Source: Candidatus Hecatella orcuttiae
GTDB lineage: Archaea > Thermoproteota > Bathyarchaeia > Hecatellales > Hecatellaceae
Reading direction: 5' to 3'
Length of the DNA: 64,000 bases
NCBI GenBank assembly: GCA_002011035.2
Contig: MTLY02000003.1
Coordinates: forward strand, 613,194-677,193
The notes below the pieces were generated by a model. That model worked only from the letters and a program-made list of their open reading frames with translations. It did no database searches and had not been told where the DNA came from. Positions 62,551 to 62,933 of the stretch are shown piece by piece. Each line of letters starts with the position of its first letter. Position 1 is the first letter of the stretch. The position numbers were made by a program, and so were the translations under genes.

Positions 62551-62634
62551 CAGAGCGTATCCGACTTCGGTGCTTCGCGCTTTCACCTAAATCCAGCAAA
62601 GCTGGACTTCAGATACGCTCGGAACGTTAAGTGA
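62543..62634 (+). other. attC-like structure (candidate integron cassette recombination site)
   Basis: GCCTAAC (62545-62551) fits the R'' consensus RYYYAAC, and GTTAAGT (62626-62632) fits the R' consensus GTTRRRY. The extended outer arms 62543-62551 and 62626-62634 pair at 8 of 9 positions. Inside, GAGCGTATC (62553-62561) and GATACGCTC (62612-62620) form a perfect 9-bp stem, separated from the outer arms by unequal spacers (1 and 5 bases). An inner hairpin TCCAGC/GCTGGA sits at 62592-62606. Orientation is right for the preceding gene. No integrase gene is in the window. Confidence 0.5.
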
Positions 62635-62735
62635 GACATTTTGTTCTATTTCAAGATCGATTTAGAGTTACCACTACGTCTGCAACACTACAAATGCAAC
62701 ACCCTAAGATTCAACAGAACCCGCGGAGGGAAAAG

Positions 62736-62746
62736 TTAATTATTTC
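62736..62746 (+). promoter_or_regulatory. TATA box of the tRNA-Lys gene
   Basis: GTTAATTATTT predicts a transcript start about 15 bases before the tRNA 5' end at 62780. Confidence 0.45.
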
Positions 62747-62788
62747 TCCCCTGATAGTAACCATGGGCCTGCCAGAACTGGGCCCGTA

Positions 62789-62810
62789 GGCTGCCAGCCG
62801 CAGCCGGGAG
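62789..62810 (+). other. tRNA-Lys intron 1 (22 bases, after position 9)
   Basis: A full bulge-helix-bulge can be drawn. The central helix is CCCG (62783-62786) with CGGG (62805-62808), the 5' bulge TA|G, the 3' bulge AG|G, the inner helix GCTG/CAGC and the outer helix GGG/CTC. Cutting the bulges joins U8-A9 directly to the D stem. Confidence 0.85.
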
Positions 62811-62840
62811 GCTCAGCTAGGATAGAGCACCGGGCTTTTA

Positions 62841-62860
62841 CGGGCCACCCGCCCAAAGCC
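62841..62860 (+). other. tRNA-Lys intron 2 (20 bases, canonical position 37/38)
   Basis: The central helix CTTT (62835-62838) pairs with AAAG (62855-62858). The 5' bulge is TA|C, the 3' bulge is CC|A, the inner helix is GGGC/GCCC and the outer helix is the anticodon stem. This is a textbook archaeal tRNA intron. Confidence 0.93.
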
Positions 62861-62866
62861 ACCCGG

Positions 62867-62900
62867 AAGAAGAAAGGCCAAGCCCGCCTCTTCTGGGGAA
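62867..62900 (+). other. tRNA-Lys intron 3 (34 bases, anticodon stem/variable loop junction)
   Basis: The inner helix AGAAGA (62868-62873) pairs with TCTTCT, with bulges GG|A and AA|G. The central helix CCC/GGG has only three pairs plus an A-G mismatch, so the motif is relaxed. Removal gives a standard 5-base variable loop GGGTC. The exact cut could shift by a base or two. Confidence 0.65.
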
Positions 62901-62933
62901 GGGTCTCGGGTTCGATTCCCGACGGGCCCGCCA

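Follow-up and report, generated by a model that had tools for sequence, protein, structure and literature searches.

Pre-tRNAs with several introns have been described mainly from Thermoproteales, and reviews put the maximum at three introns per tRNA (PMC4033280, PMC8450103); examples with three introns are the tRNA-Glu(UUC) of Pyrobaculum calidifontis and the tRNA-Pro(UGG) of P. islandicum (PMC4390854). Translocatable tRNA introns occur in Thermoproteales (Fujishima et al. 2010, cited in PMC4033280). Two further precedents bear on our study: the split tRNA-Lys(CUU), with its junction at position 30/31, that is known from Staphylothermus and Nanoarchaeum (PMC3218864), and the remark of the tRNAscan-SE authors that neighbouring introns can require the removal of one before the motif of the other forms (PMC8450103). 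We found no description of tRNA introns in the lineage considered here, order Hecatellales of the class Bathyarchaeia, in the literature searched.

The tRNA-Lys(UUU) gene that we analysed is 154 nt long and is located at 62780-62933 (+) of the window, the whole stretch of 64,000 nucleotides under study (G000:C3:613194-677193, G000 being our label for the host genome). It belongs to the known kind of multi-intron archaeal pre-tRNAs. Like the genes from Thermoproteales, it carries three short bulge-helix-bulge (BHB) introns at canonical and non-canonical sites, in a genome with predicted (alpha-beta)2 endonuclease genes and many disrupted tRNAs. It departs from them in its bathyarchaeal lineage, its isotype, and the sites 9/10, 37/38 and 43/44; up to four introns occur in one tRNA among its relatives in the class. 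In all likelihood, we are dealing with a functional tRNA-Lys(UUU) encoded at a single locus, whose precursor would be freed of its three BHB introns by an (alpha-beta)2 EndA enzyme and whose exons would be joined by RtcB.

Read 5' to 3', with exons and introns alternating, the gene is GGGCCCGTA / ggctgccagccgcagccgggag / GCTCAGCTAGGATAGAGCACCGGGCTTTTA / cgggccacccgcccaaagcc / ACCCGG / aagaagaaaggccaagcccgcctcttctggggaa / GGGTCTCGGGTTCGATTCCCGACGGGCCCGCCA. Exon 1 (62780-62788, +) comprises the acceptor 5' strand GGGCCCG, U8 and A9, and is followed by the 22-nt intron 1 at 9/10 (62789-62810, +). Exon 2 (62811-62840, +) holds the D-arm, the 5' strand of the anticodon stem and CUUUUA up to position 37, where the 20-nt intron 2 (62841-62860, +) interrupts the gene at the canonical site 37/38. 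The short exon 3 (62861-62866, +) consists of A38 and CCCGG (39-43); the 34-nt intron 3 (62867-62900, +) lies at 43/44, and exon 4 (62901-62933, +) supplies the variable loop GGGUC, the T-arm, the acceptor 3' strand, G73 and an encoded CCA. Joined, the exons give 78 nt including this CCA, with every stem intact in a standard cloverleaf and a clear anticodon. As all exons follow in order within 154 nt, a split or permuted tRNA could be ruled out. Upstream, a box picked out by eye, GGGAAAAGTTAATTATTT (62728-62745, +), about 35-52 nt 5' of tRNA position 1, is likely the BRE/TATA promoter element; GAAA..TTTAAA boxes of similar appearance are found at about -30 to -50 of several other host tRNA genes. 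In the stretch that separates the tRNA from the gene upstream, an inverted repeat capable of forming a hairpin occupies 62560-62635 and is single-copy in the genome.

We assessed each intron border for 3-nt bulges and a central helix of 4 bp. Introns 1 and 2 had been regarded as complete BHB structures and intron 3 as relaxed; the former view is borne out, with central helices paired at four of four positions, and the latter in part. Intron 1 (G-GCUGC-CAGCC-GCAGC-CGGG-AG; BHB score 34, pairs 4/5/5) has the bulges U8 A9|G and AG|G10, a central helix of positions 4-7 (CCCG) with CGGG, the 5-bp intronic helix GCUGC/GCAGC, and a 5-bp outer helix in which positions -2, -1 and 1-3 pair with 11-15, -2 and -1 being leader bases. 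Intron 2 (C-GGGC-CACCC-GCCC-AAAG-CC; pairs 4/4/5) has the bulges U36 A37|C and CC|A38, a central helix of CUUU (32-35) with AAAG and the 4-bp intronic helix GGGC/GCCC; its outer helix is the 5-bp anticodon stem. Intron 3 (A-AGAAG...CUUCU-GGGG-AA) likewise shows two 3-nt bulges, G42 G43|A and AA|G44, and its central helix pairs at three of four positions, CCC (39-41) with GGG, the sole mismatched pair being A38-G; the intronic helix AGAAG/CUUCU extends to 6 bp. Its 3-bp outer helix is formed by the final GCC of intron 2 with G45 G46 U47, so that the pairs number 3/6/3 with intron 2 in place and 3/6/0 once it is removed, whereas the removal of intron 3 leaves the motif of intron 2 unchanged. The description of intron 3 as relaxed thus holds for the central mismatch and for a precursor that has lost intron 2; with intron 2 present, both bulges and helices of 6 and 3 bp are in place.

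To parse the locus, we used a cloverleaf-plus-BHB parser whose only input is the start of the acceptor and the end of the T-arm. It nominates candidate introns wherever a BHB motif can form, excises them and rates the cloverleaf that results. Its best solution consists of introns at 62789-62810, 62841-62860 and 62867-62900, with a score of 106.5. When the interior was shuffled 200 times with its dinucleotides preserved, no shuffle scored above 85.0; a second parser with other weights gave 106 against a shuffle maximum of 84.5. ARAGORN identifies the spliced 78-mer as tRNA-Lys(ttt). On the unspliced precursor it reports no tRNA, and with introns allowed it wrongly calls a tRNA-Gly at the locus. 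Rfam at its cut-off misses the gene (21 bits in the search of its own genome), and by E-value it returns only T-arm fragments at the locus, through the tmRNA model. Some genomes with such genes will therefore probably appear to have incomplete tRNA sets. Folding energy alone is uninformative for the precursor: the RNAfold minimum contains neither the BHB motifs nor the cloverleaf, and the precursor has z = -2.0.

The host assembly measures 1.75 Mb in 3 contigs and is 97% complete with 4% contamination; our survey of its tRNAs combined genome searches with stretches around tRNA candidates. Among the host tRNA matches resolved in this assembly, we found no other tRNA-Lys(UUU), contiguous or otherwise. 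This bears on the idea that the locus is a decayed or unused copy and that the working tRNA is encoded elsewhere, to which the completeness of 97% and a reading of the locus from sequence alone leave some room. A decayed copy would hardly be expected to yield a spliced tRNA that is intact in every stem and ends in CCA, to retain introns with paired motifs, or to share its intron positions with relatives whose intron sequences differ, and we consider this explanation very improbable.

The borders of the exons are fixed by relatives that lack some or all of the introns. We surveyed 257 genomes of the class. The tRNA-Lys(UUU) genes of G055 and G020 are free of introns; that of G002 has the 9/10 intron only; that of G003, read by eye, has 37/38 and 43/44 introns and none at 9/10; and that of G048 has introns at 17/18, 37/38 and 43/44. 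Many further combinations occur in other relatives, with positions held in common while the intron sequences differ. The stretch from G002 matches QMYD01000094.1 exactly, a contig of Candidatus Hecatellales archaeon isolate B26_G17, and since G002 and the host are of the same family, the host can be placed in this bathyarchaeal lineage. It is here that a reading with fewer than three introns and a long variable arm kept, or with other borders, can be weighed. The second-best parse does retain a 13-nt variable region (100 vs 106), but the variable loop of tRNA-Lys is short, the loop GGGUC of the three-intron product equals that of the intron-free G055 gene and of the G002 product, and the 43/44 site is also occupied in G024, G048, G083-85, G028 and G078, and by eye in G003. 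Such a reading is, in our estimate, extremely unlikely. The three-intron parse scores best, and no alternative fold with fewer insertions and better pairing was found. The parser, the shuffles and the relatives with fewer or no introns thus confirm the position of the gene and the three introns of 22, 20 and 34 nt given in the original prediction, and the parse, the shuffle control and the relatives agree on two non-canonical sites, 9/10 and 43/44. The same prediction had called three-intron tRNAs rare and an intron at 9/10 unusual, and the claim of rarity is weakened by the survey: about six host tRNAs have three or more introns, and the 9/10 intron is present in the tRNA-Lys(UUU) of 7 of the 257 genomes, from families f1, f4, f11, f17 and f20. 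We claim no novelty for the 9/10 site itself.

Which enzyme might cut these introns is suggested by the exactly two PF01974 proteins that the host genome encodes, EndA alpha (L032:1231-1782) and EndA beta (L033:1477-2043, minus strand). EndA alpha resembles 3p1z and 2cv8, matches the EndA of A. pernix and Sulfolobus (3p1z, E 1e-46) and, compared with 3p1z, has the active-site Tyr, His and Lys all present, which we take to be the catalytic residues; in EndA beta, Pro replaces the active-site His of M. jannaschii EndA (1a79). The AKPK of EndA alpha aligns with EKPR of 3p1z, and the K44 and the positive residue at 46 that are kept in this way lie in a loop specific to crenarchaea that has been linked with broad specificity (PMC12397907). 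The host genome also carries an RtcB gene, and two EndA copies are present in most relatives. As judged from its sequences, the host gene set is that of an (alpha-beta)2 endonuclease system, in keeping with the endonuclease of broad specificity that had been anticipated for this genome.

These data lend themselves to a model for the maturation of the tRNA, which we infer to be expressed and spliced. The (alpha-beta)2 endonuclease of the host would cleave all three introns at their bulges, and RtcB would ligate the four exons. The motif of intron 1 draws on the acceptor strand, the D-arm and the end of the leader and thus competes with the mature fold, so that this intron would have to leave before the acceptor stem and the D-arm can form; its removal probably also precedes the trimming of the ends. 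Intron 3 would likely be removed ahead of intron 2, because its outer helix is complete only while intron 2 is still present.

The GCC on which this order depends has a telling distribution in the class. Genes for tRNA-Lys(UUU) with both 37/38 and 43/44 introns were recognised by pattern in G000, G003, G024, G048 and G083-85 and by the parser in G028 and G078. Across the 257 genomes, the 37/38 intron ends in GCC in all seven distinct sequences that possess a 43/44 intron, and in none of the 40 genomes that have a 37/38 but no 43/44 intron, where the endings are GAA, GAG, GAT, GAC, GTT and GTA (Fisher p = 1.6e-8, a value that treats the genes as independent, the seven lying in three families). 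Within the motif of the 37/38 intron itself, the CC sits in a bulge, and no evident constraint would keep it there. Since GCC can pair with G45-G46-U47 and thereby complete the 43/44 motif, the pattern suggests that the 43/44 intron is cut before the 37/38 intron; it is the pairing, and the pairing only, that suggests this order. We would accordingly propose the reverse of the case described in PMC8450103, namely that the neighbouring intron must still be present. The full proposition is that the introns are interdependent, the 37/38 intron lending its GCC strand to the outer helix of a 43/44 intron that is cut first, in a class whose tRNAs reach four introns and pass the described three; we would put its chances at slightly under even. 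Descent of the GCC ending from one ancestor, without any role in the 43/44 motif and with a free order of splicing, comes close to an even chance as well: the seven distinct genes fall into only three families (f1, f16 and f17), and the partner G45 G46 U47 hardly varies, leaving no covariation to be seen. The host tRNA-Lys(CUU) has both introns, yet its 37/38 intron ends in GAA. What simple descent does not readily explain is that GCC was kept in all seven genes while the rest of the 37/38 intron diverged, and that it is missing from the 40 genes that lack the 43/44 intron. The 43/44 introns of the host tRNA-Met and tRNA-Lys(CUU) have no such outer helix; if these introns are cut at all, the enzyme must manage in its absence.

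Four introns were found in the tRNA-Lys(UUU) of two relatives. In G078 (L153), introns of 22, 22, 19 and 23 nt lie at 9/10, 30/31, 37/38 and 43/44 (parse 110.5 vs a shuffle maximum of 81.5), and in G028 (L059) introns of 20, 23, 16 and 29 nt lie at 17/18, 30/31, 37/38 and 43/44 (104 vs 83.0); ARAGORN reads both spliced products as tRNA-Lys(ttt). For the host tRNA-Lys(CUU) (L028, minus strand, G000:C1:85094-85254), a parse by hand gives introns of 25, 19, 13 and 30 nt at 17/18, 30/31, 37/38 and 43/44, and a spliced product that ARAGORN identifies as tRNA-Lys(ctt). This last reading is less firm because the automatic parse differs: the best solution of the second parser (92.5) is not the textbook solution found by hand (cloverleaf 78). 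By these parses, members of the class exceed the three-intron maximum of the published reviews. A literature search found no relevant report of four-intron tRNAs; most subscription papers lay outside its reach, and priority is therefore not established. The 30/31 intron, which is present in several bathyarchaeal tRNA-Lys genes including the host tRNA-Lys(CUU), recalls the junction of the split tRNA-Lys(CUU), but the bathyarchaeal genes are single loci with introns in cis, and the window gene lacks an intron at 30/31.

Disruption is widespread among the host tRNAs. The parser assigns three introns each to tRNA-Phe(GAA) (L044), Trp(CCA) (L040), Ser(GCU) (L041) and Ser(UGA) (L045); two introns each are present in the tRNAs for Met, iMet, Val(GAC), Pro(GGG), Ala(GGC), Asn, Leu(UAA) and Arg(UCU), and those for Asp and Glu have a long insert in the D-arm. 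An alignment of the 43/44 introns of tRNA-Lys(UUU) (62867-62900) and tRNA-Met (L039) has 26 identical positions, 2 mismatches and 2 gaps of one base each, a score that none of 2000 shuffles reached, and this intron was probably copied between the two genes. That two host tRNAs share such a similar intron recalls the translocatable introns of Thermoproteales; unlike there, the host has one clear pair only, at the same position of the tRNA. A bathyarchaeal genome would thus combine many disrupted tRNAs, the genes for a matching enzyme of broad specificity and the duplication of an intron within the genome. How introns have been gained, lost and spread can be traced for a single tRNA through 257 genomes, and one particular order of splicing becomes testable. 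The four-intron relatives and the signature of intron dependence are most worth following.

Two minor observations concern other tRNA genes. A pattern scan of contigs returned mostly bacterial chance matches just upstream of ordinary tRNAs, the useful ones being a Hecatellales contig and Micrarchaeota. Micrarchaeota have tRNA-Arg-like genes (L087, L097, L114, L118) in which, by comparison of the sequences, an insert at about 9/10 is accompanied by further inserts; as in the window gene, the former lies between GGGCCCGTA and GCTCAGC, and its end, ..CGGGA or ..CGGGAA, is similar, but Micrarchaeota are distant and the other inserts differ. A published member of this group uses an epsilon2 endonuclease (PMC12397907). 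In the host genome, on the minus strand at L022, the first 8 bases of tRNA-Asn, GCCGCCGT, are repeated 35 nt before the start of the gene, perhaps as a tRNA fragment or by chance.
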